Positions 2,665 through 24,396 of a DNA stretch of 39,478 bases are shown here, piece after piece. The position numbers were made by a program, and so were the translations under genes. Where the stretch lies: NCBI GenBank assembly GCA_003223555.1, contig QHVM01000043.1:6290-45767 (forward strand), in the 5' to 3' direction. Below the pieces are notes generated by a model, which saw nothing but the letters and a program-made list of their open reading frames with translations, was not told the origin of the DNA and did no database searches. Within the stretch, counting starts at the first letter, position 1; every line of letters starts with the position of its first letter. Source of the stretch: Acidobacteriota bacterium. Its GTDB lineage: Bacteria; Acidobacteriota; Vicinamibacteria; Fen-336.

Positions 2665-3714
2665 ATGAGGCAGGCGACCCGGCTGCTCGTCCTGACGTGT
2701 TCCCTCGGCCTCCTGCTCTCTCCCCTCGCCGGCGGGGCCACCCGGCCACGTCGCGCCCGCACCTCGTCGGTCCGCCGCGCCCGCCGCACGGTGCCGCGAC
2801 GGCCGCCCGGCCCGCCCGCCCTGGTCGTGCCGGTGGCCGCCTCCGCCCGCGACGTCGCGGTCAGCGAAGCCGCCCGCCACAGCCTGGGTGACCAGCAGGG
2901 GGCGGTGGTGGCGATGGATCCCTACACCGGCCGACTCCTCACCGTCCTCAATCCCTATCTCGGACTGTCGACCGCCTACGAGCCGTGCTCGGTCTTCAAG
3001 ATCGTCGTCGCCATCGGCGGGCTCACCGAGCACGTCATCACCCCCGACACCGTCTACAACTGCGCTGGCGGCTGCTGGTTCTGGCCCGGCCACGGCCCCA
3101 TCAACCTCCGCCGCGCCCTCGCCGTCTCCTGCAACCCCTACTTCGAATGGGTGGGCGAGCAGCTCGGCTACGATCGGATCCAGAAGTACGCCCATCTGCT
3201 GGGCCTGGGGAGCCCCACCGGCGTCAACCTGCCCGACGAGGCGGCGGGACGGATCCCGCTCTCCGTGCCGATGAGCCGCGTCGGCCACCTCTCCAGCCAT
3301 GCCAAGGGCGTCGACACGACCGCCATCCAGCTCGCAGTGCTGATGTCGGCCGTGATCAACGGCGGGATCGTGTTCGAGCCCCAGCTCGCCGGGCCCGCGG
3401 GCTTCGTGCCCAAGGAGCGCTGGCGGCTGCCGCCTCAGGTGGTGGTGGGCGGGCTCACCGAGGGGTTCCTGGCGGCGGTGAACGAGGGCAGCGCCGCCAA
3501 CGCCTTCGACCCCGACGTCATCGTGGCCGGCAAGACGGGCACGTGCGCCGGGGTGGGCTGGTTCGCCTCCTACGCTCCCGCCGACAAGCCCGAGATCGTC
3601 ACCGTGGTCTTCGTGCGCCCGGGCACCGGGCACGTCGCCTCGGCGGTGGCCGGCCGGTTGTACCAATCCCTCTACAAGGTCTCTCCGGCCACGACCGCCA
3701 CCGCAGGCTATTAG
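2665..3714 (+). CDS. Penicillin-binding protein, transpeptidase domain only
   Basis: 349 residues. An N-terminal hydrophobic segment (~5-22) is followed by a very basic linker (~27-48, many Arg) and then a transpeptidase domain (~75-345). The three penicillin-binding motifs are all present: S109-x-x-K112 (CSVFK), S155-x-N157 (SCN) and K290-T-G-T (AGKTGT). The domain belongs to the SxxK acyltransferase fold of class B PBPs and FtsI-like enzymes, but the protein lacks the ~200-residue dimerisation/pedestal module, so it is short for a class B PBP. It probably cross-links peptidoglycan or modifies it in the periplasm, anchored by the N-terminal helix. The start fits the putative promoter just upstream. 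Its stop overlaps the restored stop of the convergent PEGA gene by 4 nt. A beta-lactamase-like role is possible but the PBP motif spacing fits better. Confidence 0.85.
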   Translation: MRQATRLLVLTCSLGLLLSPLAGGATRPRRARTSSVRRARRTVPRRPPGPPALVVPVAASARDVAVSEAARHSLGDQQGAVVAMDPYTGRLLTVLNPYLGLSTAYEPCSVFKIVVAIGGLTEHVITPDTVYNCAGGCWFWPGHGPINLRRALAVSCNPYFEWVGEQLGYDRIQKYAHLLGLGSPTGVNLPDEAAGRIPLSVPMSRVGHLSSHAKGVDTTAIQLAVLMSAVINGGIVFEPQLAGPAGFVPKERWRLPPQVVVGGLTEGFLAAVNEGSAANAFDPDVIVAGKTGTCAGVGWFASYAPADKPEIVTVVFVRPGTGHVASAVAGRLYQSLYKVSPATTATAGY

Positions 3715-4744
3715 CGGCCCAGCTCGGCCTCGATGTTGGTCGTGCGCCCGGGCTGGACCTCCACGTCCCGCTCGGGCTCAGCGCGTGGAGCTGCCGTGCC
3801 GTGCCCTTGAACTGGCCGTCGACGTAGACGGAGGCGTCCTCCGGCTGGGCGTCCACGCGAAGCGTGCCCATCTCCGCGGCGCTGCCTGGCTCATAGGCCG
3901 GCGGCTCGCGGGGGACGCGATCGTCGTAGCGATCGTCGCGGCCCTCGGGTCGGTCGTCGGAGCGATCGTCGTAACGCGCGTCGTCGACCGGCGCCGTGCC
4001 GAGCGTCGCCTCGTCCACCTCCGTCCCCGAGCCGGGCACCATGCGGTAGTGGATCTTGACCGTCTGGTCGATCGGCACGTAGACCCGCAGCCGGTAGCTA
4101 CGGAAGCCCTCGAGCTTCAGCGTGATCTCGTGACGCCCCGGGGAGATGTAGAGCCGCTGGAAGATCCCGTCGAAGTCGTCCACGATCCCCGCGTAGTAGC
4201 CATCCACGTAGACGCGCGCCTGGTGCGGCTCGACGAGCAGGCGCAGCGCGCCCGAGCGGTAGCCGTAACCATAACCGTAGCGGCCGGAACCGTAGTAGTA
4301 GGGCGAGTATCCGTAATAGCCGCTGTAGTAGTACGGCGAGTAGCCGTAGAAGAGGCTCCCGTAGAAGCCGTCATACGGGTAATAGCCGTAGCCGTAGCCA
4401 TAACCGTATCGGAACGGGCGGTAGTAGCCGGGCGAGCCGTAGTAGTACGGCGATCCATAGAAGGAACCGTAGCCGCGGCGCCCCGTGCCTGTTCCCGGGC
4501 GCGGGTGGCGAGCTTGAGCGCCGGTCGGATCGGACGCGAACGCCGAAGAGCGCGAGCCGTCCGAGGACGAAGACGAGCTTGAAGAGGAGTGTGCCTCGGG
4601 GGCCGGGTGACGGTCGGCGGACGAGCTGGCATGAGATCCGCCGTCGCCTCCGCCTCGGTGGACCGCATGGTCGTCGGCCCCTACCGGGCCGGCCGCCGCG
4701 AGCACGAACCCTCCGAGCGCCATCGCCAGCCACCGAGCCGTCAT
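3711..4744 (-). CDS. Tyr/Gly-rich PEGA-domain secreted protein, 3' frameshift
   Basis: ATG at 4744 follows a strong GAGGAGGT ribosome-binding site and gives a signal peptide (MTARWLAMALGGFVLAAAG, to ~23). Next come a Ser/His/Gly-rich stretch (~30-70), a Tyr/Gly-rich low-complexity tract (~91-164), PEGA domain 1 (~166-235, with VYVDGYYAG and SPGRHEITLKLEGF), an Asp/Arg-rich linker (~240-290) and PEGA domain 2 from ~292 (VYVDGQFKG). After residue ~321 the frame is lost: the uninterrupted frame runs on to 3599, antisense inside the transpeptidase gene. Shifting by one base near 3778-3786 restores EPERDVEVQPGRTTNIEAEL-type PEGA sequence and a TAA at 3713-3711. So one nucleotide seems missing, giving a true product of ~345 residues. 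PEGA domains are thought to bind cell-envelope components; the Y/G tract may self-associate. Confidence 0.75.
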
Positions 4745-4949
4745 CGCAACCTCCTCAAGATCACTCGATCTTTGGCGCCTCTGACAAGTGCAAGGCACAT
4801 GCCGGGGTGCCACCCCCAGTGTCCTCTATCAAGGCGCTCATTATCAAGCGGTTGGCGGTGCGGGCGCCCGTCGCGTGTCCAGGGAAAGAGACAGTGACCG
4901 CGACCGCGTGGGGCACCGAGGGGACAGCCGTTATACTCAGCAGCCCGCC
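4745..4949. other. Divergent intergenic region, PEGA gene / lpxB
   Basis: This 205-bp stretch holds the upstream regions of two divergent genes and no convincing coding frame. GAGGAGGT for the minus-strand gene lies at about 4749-4756. A near-perfect inverted repeat GGGGTG-C-CACCCC sits at 4804-4816 and could be an operator or a REP-like motif. TATACT at 4932-4937 is a -10-like hexamer 12 nt before the lpxB ATG, so the lpxB leader would be only a few bases long. Confidence 0.45.
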
Positions 4950-19648: not shown

Positions 19649-20512
19649 GTGCGGCGCGTGTTTCTGGGCTTCCTGGTCCTCGCGCTCGTCTCGGCCGGGT
19701 GGGTCGTCGGGGGCCTTCCCTCCCGGGCCCAGGTGCAGGCCCTGGTCCAGGGCGACCCCGGCCTCACCGCCGTCATGCGCCAGCGTGAAGAAGAAGCGCG
19801 CCGGGCGCGGCGGCCGGCGCGCCGCGTCCAGGCCTGGGTCCCCATCTCGGAGGTGTCCCGCAACCTCATCCACGCGGTGCTGGCCGCGGAGGACCAGAAG
19901 TTCTTCGGGCACGAGGGAGTGGACTGGGACGCCATCAAGAAGTCGGTGGAGGTCGATCGGGCCCGGGGGCGGCTGGTTCGCGGCGGCAGCACCATCACGC
20001 AGCAGCTCGCCAAGAACCTCTTCCTCAGCACCCGCAGGTCGATCGTCCGCAAGCTGCGGGAGCTGGTGGTGGCGTGGTGGCTGGAGGCGGACCTTTCGAA
20101 GAAGCGGATCCTGGAGCTGTATCTCAACGTCATCGAGTGGGGCGACGGGCTGTACGGCTGCGAGGCCGCCGCGCGACGATACTATGGCAAGCCCTCCTCC
20201 GCCCTCGATCCGGAGGAGGCCGCCGGGCTGGCGGGGATGATCCCGAACCCGCGCCGCATCAACCCTCTGGTCGACCCGCGCCGGTTCAGCCGGGCCCAGC
20301 GCCGCGTGCTGTGGCTGATGGCGCACGCCGGCTACATCCGGGGTGACCTCGCGGGGCTGGGCCGCGAGCCCCCTCCGCCGGAGCCGGCGGCTGAAGAAGA
20401 GGAGGAGCCGCCGGAGCCCATCGCTGTTCCAGAGCCCACCCGAGCGCCGCCGACGACCCCCTCCCCCCAACCGTCGCCGCCGGCGACGCCCGCGACGCCG
20501 GGTGTAGGATAG
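19649..20512 (+). CDS. mtgA: Monofunctional peptidoglycan glycosyltransferase
   Basis: 287 residues. It polymerises lipid II glycan strands at the periplasmic face (GT51). An N-terminal membrane anchor (VRRVFLGFLVLALVSAGWVV, ~1-20) precedes the GT51 domain at ~60-235. Motifs: AEDQKFFGHEGVDWDAI with catalytic Glu81 and H88-E-G, RGGSTITQQLAKNLFLS (~111-127), a basic RKLRELVVAWWLE patch (~134-146), KKRILELYLNVIEWGDGLYG (~151-170) and an AAG-type ending before MIPNPRRINPL. The C-terminal ~45 residues are Pro/Glu/Thr-rich (PEPAAEEEEEPPEP, then PTTPSPQPSPP) and probably disordered, an addition not usual in MtgA. The GTG at 19649 fits a GATAAT hexamer 6 nt upstream. It is divergent from the broken acyl-CoA dehydrogenase gene. 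Confidence 0.93.
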   Translation: MRRVFLGFLVLALVSAGWVVGGLPSRAQVQALVQGDPGLTAVMRQREEEARRARRPARRVQAWVPISEVSRNLIHAVLAAEDQKFFGHEGVDWDAIKKSVEVDRARGRLVRGGSTITQQLAKNLFLSTRRSIVRKLRELVVAWWLEADLSKKRILELYLNVIEWGDGLYGCEAAARRYYGKPSSALDPEEAAGLAGMIPNPRRINPLVDPRRFSRAQRRVLWLMAHAGYIRGDLAGLGREPPPPEPAAEEEEEPPEPIAVPEPTRAPPTTPSPQPSPPATPATPGVG

Positions 20513-20533: not shown

Positions 20534-21013
20534 ATGGAGCACCGTTGTCCCCAGTGCGGCATCGAGCTGCCGCAGGGCGTGCCGGCCTGGGTCCGCCGGC
20601 TCACGGTGGCGCAGGCGATGACGGCGAGCCCGGTCACGATCGCGCCCGAGGACACGCTCATGCGGGCCATCGAGCTGATGCGGATACACGGCATCCGCCG
20701 CATGCCGGTGGTGATGGGCGGGAACCTGGTGGGGTTGCTGGCGGAGGGCGACCTCAAGCGCGCCCAGCCGTCGGCCCTGTCCGGCTCCGAGGAGGAGTTC
20801 AACCGGGTGATGGAGGGGACGCAGGTCTCCCGCATCATGATCCAGAACCCGGTGACGGTCGGCGAGGACACCCCGCTGCTGGAGGCGGCCCAGACGCTCC
20901 ACACCACGAAGTTCGGGGCGCTCCCGGTGGTCAAGGACGGGCAGCTCAGCGGCATGCTCACCGACAGCGACCTCATCCGCTGCCTGGCCGACCTCCTCGC
21001 CCACGGAGGATGA
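20534..21013 (+). CDS. CBS-domain-pair protein
   Basis: 159 residues with a good GGAGGAGG ribosome-binding site. Residues ~1-14 (MEHRCPQCGIELPQ) look like half a zinc ribbon with a single C-x-x-C. The rest is a tandem CBS pair: CBS1 ~23-85 (VAQAMTASPVTIAPEDTLMR, GIRRMPVVMGGNLVGLLAEGDL) and CBS2 ~97-155 (VSRIMIQNPVTVGEDTPLLE, FGALPVVKDGQLSGMLTDSDL). CBS pairs bind adenine nucleotides or SAM and act as energy or metabolite sensors; no partner domain is present, so it would act in trans. The stop overlaps the next start (ATGA), so it is translationally coupled to the methyltransferase downstream. TGTAGGAT at about 20503-20510 may be the promoter -10. Confidence 0.85.
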   Translation: MEHRCPQCGIELPQGVPAWVRRLTVAQAMTASPVTIAPEDTLMRAIELMRIHGIRRMPVVMGGNLVGLLAEGDLKRAQPSALSGSEEEFNRVMEGTQVSRIMIQNPVTVGEDTPLLEAAQTLHTTKFGALPVVKDGQLSGMLTDSDLIRCLADLLAHGG

Positions 21014-21720
21014 CGGACGCCGACGTCGAGACGTCCTCCGCCGCCTACGCCCGGCGCTTCGAAGGCGCCGTCGGGCGCTGGTTCCTGGACGTGCAGGCCC
21101 GCGTCACCCTGGAGCTGCTCCGCCCCCGGGCGGGAACCTCCGTCCTCGACGTGGGGGGCGGCCACGCCCAGCTCACCGGCCCGCTCCTGGCCGCGGGCTG
21201 CCAGGTGACGGTCTATGGCAGCGCGGAGGCGTGCCGCGACCGCGTCCACGAATGGGTCCGCGCCGGGCGCGTCGCGTTCCGTTCCGGGCCGCTGCAGCAG
21301 GCGCCGTGGCCGCCCGCTTCCTTCGATGCCGTCCTCGCCTTCCGGCTGCTCCCCCACGTCGACCGTTGGCGCGACCTCGTCGCCGAGCTGTGCCGCCTGG
21401 CGCGGGAGGCGGTGATCGTCGACTACCCGACGTTCCGCAGCGCCAACGCCTTGTCGGGAGCGCTGTTCCGCCTCAAGAAGGAGCTTGAGCGCGACGCGCG
21501 GCCCTTCCGCGTCTTTCGCGACGCCGAAGTGGCGCAGGCCTTCGGGGCGGCCGGGTTCACCGCCACCGCGCGGCGGCCGGAGTTCCTGCTCCCCATGGCC
21601 GTCCACCGCGGCCTGCGGCTCGCCCCGCTCTCGCGGATGCTGGAGGCGGCGGCCCGAGCGACCGGCCTCACGCGGGCGCTCGGCTCGCCGGTGATCCTCC
21701 GCGCCGAGCGACGTGGCTGA
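21010..21720 (+). CDS. Class I SAM-dependent methyltransferase (first of two)
   Basis: 236 residues, starting at the ATG that overlaps the CBS stop. The Rossmann methyltransferase core is visible: SVLDVGGGHAQLTGPLL (motif I, ~43-59), QVTVYGSAEACRDRV (motif II acidic region weak: Y-G-S in place of D/E), a FDAVLAFRLLPHVDRWRDL motif (~105-123) and REAVIVDYPTF (~134-144). The C-terminal region RRPEFLLPMAVHRGLRLAPL is typical of lipid- or quinone-type methyltransferases but no substrate is assigned. It overlaps the next methyltransferase by 8 nt. The series CBS, MTase, MTase, kinase may be one transcript. Confidence 0.8.
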   Translation: MTDADVETSSAAYARRFEGAVGRWFLDVQARVTLELLRPRAGTSVLDVGGGHAQLTGPLLAAGCQVTVYGSAEACRDRVHEWVRAGRVAFRSGPLQQAPWPPASFDAVLAFRLLPHVDRWRDLVAELCRLAREAVIVDYPTFRSANALSGALFRLKKELERDARPFRVFRDAEVAQAFGAAGFTATARRPEFLLPMAVHRGLRLAPLSRMLEAAARATGLTRALGSPVILRAERRG

Positions 21721-22492
21721 CCTCCAGCCCTGGGCCCTGGCCCTCTTCCGCCGGTCCGTCCTCAAGCAGCGCAAGATCGTCGAGATCGTCGCGATGCTGG
21801 GGCCGACCGAAGGCCTGCGCTGCCTCGACCTGGGCTCCGACAACGGTGTCGTGAGCCTGCTGTTGCGCCGGCGCGGCGGGAGGTGGGCCTCCGCCGACCT
21901 CACGGCCGAAGCAGTGGCGTCGATCCGGGAGCTCGTGACCGACGACGTGCACCAGGTGGAGCGCGCGCGGCTGCCGTTCGCGGACGCGGCGTTCGACCGC
22001 GTCGTGGTGGTCGACATGCTGGAGCACGTGGCCGACGACTGCGCCTTCGCCGCCGAGCTGGCCCGGGTCACCCGGCCGGGGGGGCGCCTGATCGTGAACA
22101 CGCCCCACCTCAAGGACACCGCGCTGCGGCGAGTGCGCCACGCGATCGGGCAGACCGACGAGAAGCACGGCCACCTGCATGCCGGCTATACGGCCGTGTC
22201 GCTGGCGGCGCTGCTGGCCCCCCGCTTCAGCCTGGAGGCCCACCGGACCTATTCGCGCTTCTTCTCGGAGGCGGTGGATACCGCCATCAACTGGGGGGTG
22301 GAGCGTCTCGGCAAGCGCCCGTCGGTCAAGGGGATGGTCGTCACCGGTTCCGACCTCCGGCGGCACCGCAAGGCCTTCCGGGCCTATTCTTTCCTCCATC
22401 CCATGGTATGGACCGTATCCCGCCTGGACGCCCTCCTGCCCTGGACGAGCGGGTACATGTTGCTGGCCTCCCTGACCCGCCGGAGGGACTGA
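21713..22492 (+). CDS. Class I SAM-dependent methyltransferase (second of two)
   Basis: 259 residues from a GTG that overlaps the end of the preceding gene. Motif I is LRCLDLGSDNGVVSLLL (~36-52), then ASADLTAEAVASIREL (~61-76, Asp for SAM ribose), LPFADAAFDRVVVVDMLEHV (~88-107) and VTRPGGRLIVNTPH (~119-132). The remaining ~110 residues (HGHLHAGYTAVSLAALLAPR, YSRFFSEAVDTAINWGVERL) form a substrate lobe ending in a hydrophobic segment (LLPWTSGYMLLASL) that could touch the membrane. It resembles methyltransferases of lipid, quinone or glycan modification. Two methyltransferases side by side suggest a two-step modification or a heteromeric pair. No substrate can be assigned. Confidence 0.8.
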   Translation: MADLQPWALALFRRSVLKQRKIVEIVAMLGPTEGLRCLDLGSDNGVVSLLLRRRGGRWASADLTAEAVASIRELVTDDVHQVERARLPFADAAFDRVVVVDMLEHVADDCAFAAELARVTRPGGRLIVNTPHLKDTALRRVRHAIGQTDEKHGHLHAGYTAVSLAALLAPRFSLEAHRTYSRFFSEAVDTAINWGVERLGKRPSVKGMVVTGSDLRRHRKAFRAYSFLHPMVWTVSRLDALLPWTSGYMLLASLTRRRD

Positions 22493-22545: not shown

Positions 22546-24396
22546 TTGAGCAACGATAGCGCCGTCCCCCAGACCGCGTCCCGGTTCGGCCGATACGAGA
22601 TCCAGGAGGAGATCGGCGAGGGGGCGATGGGCCGGGTCTACAAGGCCTGGGACCCTCTGGTGCGCCGGGTCGTCGCCATCAAGACGATCCGGTCCGAGTA
22701 CCTCACCGGCGAGACTCACGAGGAGTACCTGCGGCGGTTCCGCCGGGAGGCCCAGGCGGCCGGCCGCCTCTCCCACCCGAACATCGTGGCCATCTACGAC
22801 GTCGGCGAGGACTACTTCGTCATGGAGTTCCTCGAGGGGGTGAGCCTGCAGGCCGTGCTCACCCAGCGCGAGGTGCTCCCCCTCGCCGAGGCGCTGCGGA
22901 TCCTGACCCCGGTGGCGGAGGCCATCGACTATGCGCACCGTTCCGGGATCGTCCACCGGGACGTCAAGCCGGCCAACATCATGATCCTGCCCGACGGCCG
23001 GCCGAAGCTCATGGACTTCGGCGTGGCCCGGCTGCCCACCTCGGCCATCACCGAGTCGGGCCAGTCCTTCGGCTCCCCGTCCTACATGGCGCCCGAGCAG
23101 ATCGCCAGCGACGACGTCACGCCCCAGGCCGACCTGTTCTCCTTCGCGGTCGTCGCCTACGAGGCCCTGACCGGAAGGCGCCCGTTCCAGGGGGCCAGCA
23201 TCACGGCGATCATCTACCGCATCGTCCACGAGCCGGCCCCGCCCCCCCGGAGCTTCAACGACGAGCTGCCTCCGCACCACGACGAGGTCTTCCGGAGAGC
23301 CCTCGCCAAGGACCCGGGCAACCGGTTTCCCTCCGCGCAGGCGTTCATCGCCGGCCTCAACGGGGAGGCGCTGGTCCTGCCCGAGCACCTGCTGGAGCCG
23401 CTGGCCGCCGCCCCCGCCACGGACAACTCGGGGGACCTGACGACACACCTGCTGCGGCGGCGGGCGGACGGCACGCTCGACGACGACGACGTCCGGCCCC
23501 GGCGCTGGCTGCCGTGGGCGGTGGCGGTGGCGGCGGTGCTCGCGCTCGGGGCCGAGGTCGTGGCGCTGCGCCGGGGGGGCCCGATCCCCGCGACCGCGGC
23601 GCGAAGGGTCCCTTCCCTGCCCGAGGGGCTGCGCATCGAGACCCGGCCCCCGGGGGCTTCGGTTTGGATGGACGGGCGGCCGGCGGGCGAGGCTCCGCTG
23701 TCGATCAAGGACCTGCGCCCCGGCGTGCATCAGGTGCGCGTCGCGCAGGAGGGCTACGCCCCGGCCGAGCTGACCTTCGAGGTGCAGGAAGGAATGAGCC
23801 CTCCGCCCCTGCGGTTCAAGATGGAGCCGTTGACCAGCCCGGCCGAGATCCACTCCGAGCCCGAGGCCGCGACCGTGACCCTGGACGGCCGGGCCATCGG
23901 CGCGACACCGCTGGACAAGATCGCGCTCGGCCCGGGACCGCACCAGATACGCCTGGAACGGAAGGGTTTCCTCGCCACGGTGAAGCAGGTGGAGGCCCGT
24001 CCGGGAGTGAAGCTGTTCGTGCGGGCCCGGCTGGATCCGGCGCCCCCGAGCCTCGCCGATGAGGCGCCGCCGCCGACCCTCGCCCCAACCCCGGCGCCGC
24101 TCGTCGAGGGCGCCCTCGTGGAGCTGGACGACGGCGTGAAGGCGCCTCGACTCATTTCCGGCGCTCGCGCCCAGTATCCAAAGGCGGCGCAGAAGCTGCA
24201 CCTGCAGGGCACCGTCCAGGTCGAGCTGATCGTCGACGAGAAGGGCATTCCCCGCGACCCCCGTGTCGTGCAATCCGCCAGCGCCGTCCTGGACGAGGCC
24301 GTGATCGACGCGGTCTACAAGTTCCGTTACGAGCCGGCGGTGAAGGACGGCGTCCGGGTCAAGGTCCGCCAGACGTACAGCCAGAAGTTTCCTTGA
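22546..24396 (+). CDS. Ser/Thr protein kinase fused to PEGA repeats and a TonB-type C-terminal domain
   Basis: 616 residues from a TTG start, the only in-frame candidate before the kinase domain. Kinase ~17-275: GEGAMGRVYKAWD glycine loop (~24-36), K46 in VAIKTI, H137-R-D139-VKPANI catalytic loop, D157-F-G159, MAPEQ and ADLFSF. One transmembrane helix at ~321-341 (WLPWAVAVAAVLALGAEVVA). Outside it lie two PEGA domains (~360-430 with VWMDGRPAGEAPLS, and ~435-497 with VTLDGRAIGATPLD), a Pro-rich spacer (~498-520) and a TonB C-terminal domain (~533-616, ISGARAQYPKAA, LQGTVQVELIVDEKGIPRD, VIDAVYKFRYEPA). The kinase is cytoplasmic and the sensory part periplasmic. It may phosphorylate partners in response to envelope signals. 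The 3' end overlaps the convergent pepE gene by 38 nt. Confidence 0.88.
   Translation: MSNDSAVPQTASRFGRYEIQEEIGEGAMGRVYKAWDPLVRRVVAIKTIRSEYLTGETHEEYLRRFRREAQAAGRLSHPNIVAIYDVGEDYFVMEFLEGVSLQAVLTQREVLPLAEALRILTPVAEAIDYAHRSGIVHRDVKPANIMILPDGRPKLMDFGVARLPTSAITESGQSFGSPSYMAPEQIASDDVTPQADLFSFAVVAYEALTGRRPFQGASITAIIYRIVHEPAPPPRSFNDELPPHHDEVFRRALAKDPGNRFPSAQAFIAGLNGEALVLPEHLLEPLAAAPATDNSGDLTTHLLRRRADGTLDDDDVRPRRWLPWAVAVAAVLALGAEVVALRRGGPIPATAARRVPSLPEGLRIETRPPGASVWMDGRPAGEAPLSIKDLRPGVHQVRVAQEGYAPAELTFEVQEGMSPPPLRFKMEPLTSPAEIHSEPEAATVTLDGRAIGATPLDKIALGPGPHQIRLERKGFLATVKQVEARPGVKLFVRARLDPAPPSLADEAPPPTLAPTPAPLVEGALVELDDGVKAPRLISGARAQYPKAAQKLHLQGTVQVELIVDEKGIPRDPRVVQSASAVLDEAVIDAVYKFRYEPAVKDGVRVKVRQTYSQKFP

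Follow-up and report, generated by a model that had tools for sequence, protein, structure and literature searches.

Background

The membrane helices of TonB and TolA carry a Ser/His motif by which the two proteins bind their motors (PMC12204202). Among Ser/Thr kinases, the PASTA kinases PknB and StkP of Gram-positive hosts comprise a cytoplasmic kinase, one membrane helix and repeated extracytoplasmic domains. How the state of the envelope is relayed to Ser/Thr kinase signalling in diderms without PASTA kinases is poorly understood. NfsG of Myxococcus xanthus, as far as its description as an FHA/TonB protein goes (PMC2875238), joins a signalling-type domain to a TonB domain. Searches of the open-access literature, which mostly required all terms and are weak evidence of absence, turned up no account of a kinase-TonB fusion, and neither TonB nor PEGA is mentioned by Krupa and Srinivasan (2005). 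The pairing of a kinase with a TonB C-terminal domain (TonB_C) may already be present in domain database listings.

Here we describe such a fusion, encoded in a 39,478-nucleotide stretch of an Acidobacteriota genome (the whole stretch analysed, hereafter the window). It shares with PknB and StkP the layout of a cytoplasmic kinase, a single helix and repeated extracytoplasmic domains, and its kinase is closest to PknA and PknB, but it carries PEGA and TonB_C domains rather than PASTA domains and comes from Acidobacteriota rather than a Gram-positive host. With TonB of the TonB-ExbB-ExbD system it has in common the C-terminal domain family and its predicted fold, whereas it differs in its N-terminal kinase, its internal, His-less helix and the lack of any exbBD neighbours found. 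It resembles NfsG by description, with a kinase where NfsG has an FHA domain. We file it with the transmembrane receptor kinases, a known kind of protein.

Domain architecture and predicted structure

The gene occupies positions 22546-24396 of the window on the forward strand, as an open frame with a TTG start, 616 amino acids plus stop and full-length homologues in other genomes. The chain of kinase, membrane helix, two PEGA domains and TonB_C that an earlier note had read at exactly these coordinates is correct, and every domain in it is real according to Pfam or NCBIfam and predicted structure. The kinase domain (amino acids 17-265; 22594-23340, + strand) matches Pkinase (PF00069) with 168.6 bits and has all of its landmarks in place (GEGAMG at 24, Lys46 in VAIK, HRD at 137, DFG at 157 and APE at 182), with the key residues invariant in 15 homologues. 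By profile and motifs it is a Hanks-type (eukaryotic-like) Ser/Thr kinase and is predicted to be active; among solved kinases, PknA and PknB are its closest matches. A poorly conserved juxtamembrane linker (23341-23511, +; mean identity 26 %) leads to a single predicted membrane helix, PWAVAVAAVLALGAEVVAL (amino acids 323-341; 23512-23568, +), which is the sole hydrophobic segment (Kyte-Doolittle mean 2.03), contains no His and one Glu, and is flanked by arginines on both sides. Beyond the helix lie two PEGA domains at 23629-23793 and 23848-24039 (both +; G000:C94:29918-30082 and G000:C94:30137-30328), which score 55.2 and 49.1 bits with PF08308 and 96.4 bits together, each single domain exceeding the curated cut-off of 20.8. 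No PASTA repeats were found by Pfam, and the PASTA-kinase model NF033483 reaches 302 bits (cut-off 450) over the kinase part only, so the protein does not classify as a PASTA kinase.

A Pro/Ala-rich linker of low model confidence (amino acids 501-519; 24046-24102, +; mean identity 16 %) separates the PEGA domains from the C-terminal domain. A profile search of the C-terminal ~85 residues, on which the note had let its assignment depend, returned TonB_C (PF03544, amino acids 542-609; 24169-24372, +) with 55.9 bits and an E value of 6e-15 against a cut-off of 24.6, and NCBIfam TIGR01352 (tonB_Cterm) matches the same domain with 42.3 bits, above its cut-off of 27.1. The sequence profile of this domain also retrieves TonB chains among solved proteins. 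In an AlphaFold2 model of amino acids 355-616, built on 18 homologous tails, the individual domains come out well (mean pLDDT 91.1), whereas their mutual arrangement is not reliable (pTM only 0.46). In Foldseek searches of the PDB, the last domain of the model matches the TonB C-terminal domain 6i97_D (E 4.3e-5; TM-score 0.83 by target) and, lower in the list, further TonB C-terminal domains (1u07, 2gsk and 2grx); receptor-bound TonB structures are among these matches (6i97_D, 2gsk_B and 2grx_C). The long C-terminal strand, of the type that pairs with a TonB box, is predicted to be kept. Together, the score above the curated cut-off and the modelled fold point to a genuine member of the TonB_C family. 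For the PEGA part, the matches were weaker and fell on beta-sandwich proteins, carboxypeptidases among them.

Conservation and spread of the fusion

Full-length homologues at 39-76 % identity occur in seven relatives, namely G001 (76 %), G005 (three copies), G009, G034, G040 and G030, with G042 and a second G034 copy in addition. This recurrence rules out an assembly chimera, a misassembly or a chance join. At least one kinase-TonB_C fusion per genome was present in 14 of the 14 genomes examined of the window's GTDB family, of which 13 were read as sequence and one (G002) was counted from the presence of both domains inside a single 834-amino-acid frame on contig C271. Other families of Acidobacteriota have fusions with quite different kinases (G084, G099 and G294). 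Among the 80 kinase loci that best match the window kinase in named genomes, TonB_C accompanies two, both from Acidobacteriota, and PEGA accompanies 12. The combination of a kinase with TonB_C is old in one branch of Acidobacteriota, which has made repeated use of it.

Mean identity among the homologues is 61 % for the kinase, 53 % for TonB_C (amino acids 520-616), 43-44 % for the PEGA domains and 25-26 % for linker and helix, which makes TonB_C the second most conserved part after the kinase. The number of PEGA domains varies across the fusions (0, 1 or 2), and TonB_C is kept; high conservation combined with this retention points to a selected function of TonB_C. As for PEGA, the note had linked the domain to envelope binding: its occurrence in surface proteins, on which the envelope link rests, is on record (PMC2447325), and no binding activity for PEGA turned up in the papers that the search listed.

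Kinase phylogeny and a helix-less sister group

In a tree of kinase domains, the window type (12 rows) adjoins a PEGA-less group (kinase-helix-TonB_C) and a helix-less kinase-PEGA-TonB_C group (four rows, support 100/100); a separate second clade of kinase-PEGA-PEGA-TonB_C proteins has one member on contig C25 of the window genome. Because TonB_C itself was used to gather the rows that bear it, and most of the remaining rows belong to other phyla, the tree is no evidence that TonB_C is present in every kinase of these clades or for any particular number of fusion events.

The helix-less proteins are encoded at L183 3049-4548, L185 2748-4217, L186 861-2363 and L068 5971-7500. Over their full length, the most hydrophobic 21-residue stretches fall within the kinase or the TonB_C core, and both PEGA and TonB_C were confirmed by independent Pfam models. 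An AlphaFold2 model of L183 has a disordered linker at the position of the helix in other fusions; packing of TonB_C on the kinase was considered for this protein, and no arrangement of its domains is modelled with confidence (pTM 0.56). Of the other fusions found, nearly all carry a helix. Since the helix-less proteins have no membrane helix, their TonB_C is predicted to be cytosolic and could not touch an outer-membrane receptor, which is the strongest reason against equating TonB_C with outer-membrane receptor contact. That equation, made by the note, is therefore weakened. The helix-less group would be a natural test case for a possible role of TonB_C outside the Ton system.

Some of the helix-less kinases have a small gene nearby whose product begins like a ferredoxin (MTYVIAEPCVNTKDTACVEVCPVDC).

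Motor motif and membrane orientation

The motor-binding His was found in none of 27 kinase-fusion helices. Those free TonB-like proteins of the window genome that were read do have an S...H helix (e.g. SLVGHVIAIAALILVPIL), and an ExbB-family gene adjoins two such proteins. The absence of His from 27 of 27 fusion helices, set against its presence in the free TonBs, indicates that the fusion is unpowered and disfavours a driving role. No ExbB, ExbD or TonB-dependent receptor is encoded among the window genes scanned, and, judged by gene distance, no exbBD or receptor gene is linked to relatives of the window kinase where these were checked; about 40 TonB-dependent receptor barrels are encoded in the genome as a whole. 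TonB force transducers have an N-terminal helix with the Ser/His motif, whereas the helix of the window fusion is internal and lacks the motif's His; by gene distance, the fusion also has no association with exbB/exbD. A powered TonB-like role is unlikely on this sequence evidence.

A protein kinase requires ATP, and the N-terminal side of the fusion is therefore taken as cytoplasmic. In three homologues from another family (L014, L015 and L017), a charge of +5 on the kinase side and of -2 to -4 beyond the helix clearly favours an orientation with the kinase inside and TonB_C outside. The window fusion and its congener have a net charge of -2 on the kinase side and +4 on the other, and the helix holds a Glu; the flanking charges of the window fusion itself do not support the assumed orientation. 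We infer its topology from homology, its own sequence being no demonstration of it. The note had proposed that the kinase may sense or drive an outer-membrane process. The helix between the kinase and PEGA-TonB_C does make an envelope-facing receptor kinase likely, but the driving part finds no support, given the missing motor-binding His and the lack of any linked ExbB/ExbD or receptor gene found.

Genomic neighbours and other window genes

Upstream of the kinase lie a peptidoglycan transglycosylase (19649-20512, +) and two methyltransferases (20545-21720 and 21713-22492, both +), all identified by Pfam. These genes and the kinase are on the same strand with gaps of at most 54 bases or overlaps, and they possibly form one operon. 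The other species of the genus (G001) shares this gene order; beyond the genus it is lost and the neighbours of other relatives differ, so a conserved operon around the window kinase was rejected. No receptor gene is conserved beside the window kinase or the kinase on contig C25, where checked; a receptor neighbour of the latter was tried as a candidate and is absent near its homologues. A possible connection by way of PEGA domains within TonB-dependent receptors of the window genome was discarded as well, the weak match sitting on a CarboxypepD_reg domain and being a cross-match. PADLOC matches to the anti-phage kinase PD-T4-6 are uninformative, because they cover the kinase domain and at most reach the linker and helix.

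The second PEGA protein that the note had placed at 3711-4744 exists, as a minus-strand open frame at 3599-4813 encoding a secreted-looking, Gly/Tyr-rich protein with a PEGA match of 52.9 bits (Pfam). The second PEGA copy in the translation loses register towards the C-terminus, which points to a frameshift, either of the gene itself or of the assembly.

In one family (f10; L143, L144 and L146), the window-type kinase has a multicopper oxidase in its vicinity, as well as a conserved, apparently secreted protein (about 87 % identical).

Possible functions of the TonB_C end

We tentatively favour, at somewhat less than an even chance, an inner-membrane receptor-like Ser/Thr kinase in which TonB_C is an unpowered strand-capture docking domain for a putative envelope partner. 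The kinase domain would reside in the cytoplasm, one helix would span the inner membrane, and the two PEGA beta-sandwiches would act as a periplasmic spacer. Like TonB, TonB_C at the tip would capture a peptide strand of the partner through beta-strand addition, but without power from ExbB/ExbD, and autophosphorylation would respond to docking or release through altered dimerisation or kinase spacing. Candidate partners would be the N-terminus of an outer-membrane receptor, another envelope protein or the cell wall. This proposal starts from the observed domain order, intact kinase motifs, conservation and missing motor-binding motif and from the predicted TonB_C fold; from these we infer the membrane orientation, the strand addition and the activation by docking. 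The numerous receptor barrels of the genome speak for it as possible partners, and the charges around the protein's own helix, the Glu within it and the lack of a linked receptor gene speak against it. The missing motor motif and the helix-less cousins argue for a sensing or docking kinase and not a machine driving outer-membrane transport. A conserved kinase with a TonB docking end and no motor motif would constitute a receptor-kinase class whose ligand could be looked for by simple peptide binding.

Periplasmic docking is not the sole possible role of PEGA-TonB_C, because the helix-less group keeps these domains and the kinase in one compartment. More broadly, and with greater doubt, TonB_C and PEGA may have been recruited as a reusable strand-capture module of kinases, outside the membrane or cytosolic depending on the paralogue and independent of the Ton motor and receptors.

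A special case of the docking reading, equivalent to the note's proposal restricted to sensing, would have the kinase sense receptor occupancy, with TonB_C contacting the TonB box of TonB-dependent receptors. The retained fold with its predicted box-pairing strand and the supply of about 40 receptor barrels fit this idea; it nevertheless seems unlikely, as the kinase has no linked receptor gene, none is conserved next to its relatives, and the helix-less relatives would be unable to reach a receptor. We give a similarly low chance to a general regulatory domain that works by strand capture or self-association in either compartment, with membrane attachment being incidental. The fully supported helix-less clade and the disordered linker modelled in L183 are what such a domain would predict, but the L183 model shows no sign of TonB_C packing on the kinase and a helix is the rule elsewhere.

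Less probable again is a cell-wall-sensing kinase in which PEGA-PEGA-TonB_C substitutes for the PASTA domains of PknB-type kinases, binds peptidoglycan and tunes wall synthesis. TonB C-terminal domains may bind peptidoglycan. The proximity of the kinase to PknA/PknB among solved kinases, NF033483 as its closest NCBIfam kinase model (still below cut-off) and the upstream transglycosylase, which the congener has as well, would agree with such a role, but the linkage to the transglycosylase is gone outside the genus, Pfam finds no known peptidoglycan-binding domain in the fusion, and the peptidoglycan contact that has been demonstrated is made by ExbD (PMC10771500). Finally, a powered, TonB-like force transducer under the control of its own kinase is favoured by the position of TonB_C at the distal end of a membrane-spanning chain and is very improbable given the internal, His-less helix and the lack of any linked exbBD found.

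Further kinase-TonB_C proteins

The second kinase-PEGA-PEGA-TonB_C protein of the window genome (L147 8612-11164 on G000:C25, an 851-amino-acid frame) has the same domain order as the window fusion but belongs to the separate kinase clade, has a long linker and holds a fixed place divergent from bshC. This type occurs in most genomes of the family, and in most relatives checked (L147, L150-L155 and L187) it lies divergent from the bacillithiol gene bshC and a pair of other conserved genes that look like bshA and bshB. Identity between most genera is about 85 % in its kinase domain and about 50 % in its tail.

A third kinase-TonB_C protein of the window genome (L028 2188-4479, G000:C68) has a kinase domain that has diverged and, where PEGA would be, a charged stretch that is probably coiled-coil. 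In L023 4439-6709 (G001:C354), an N-terminal stretch that appears to resemble a response-regulator receiver precedes kinase-helix-PEGA-TonB_C, and in L202 (G099) a receiver domain identified by Pfam precedes the kinase and TonB_C.
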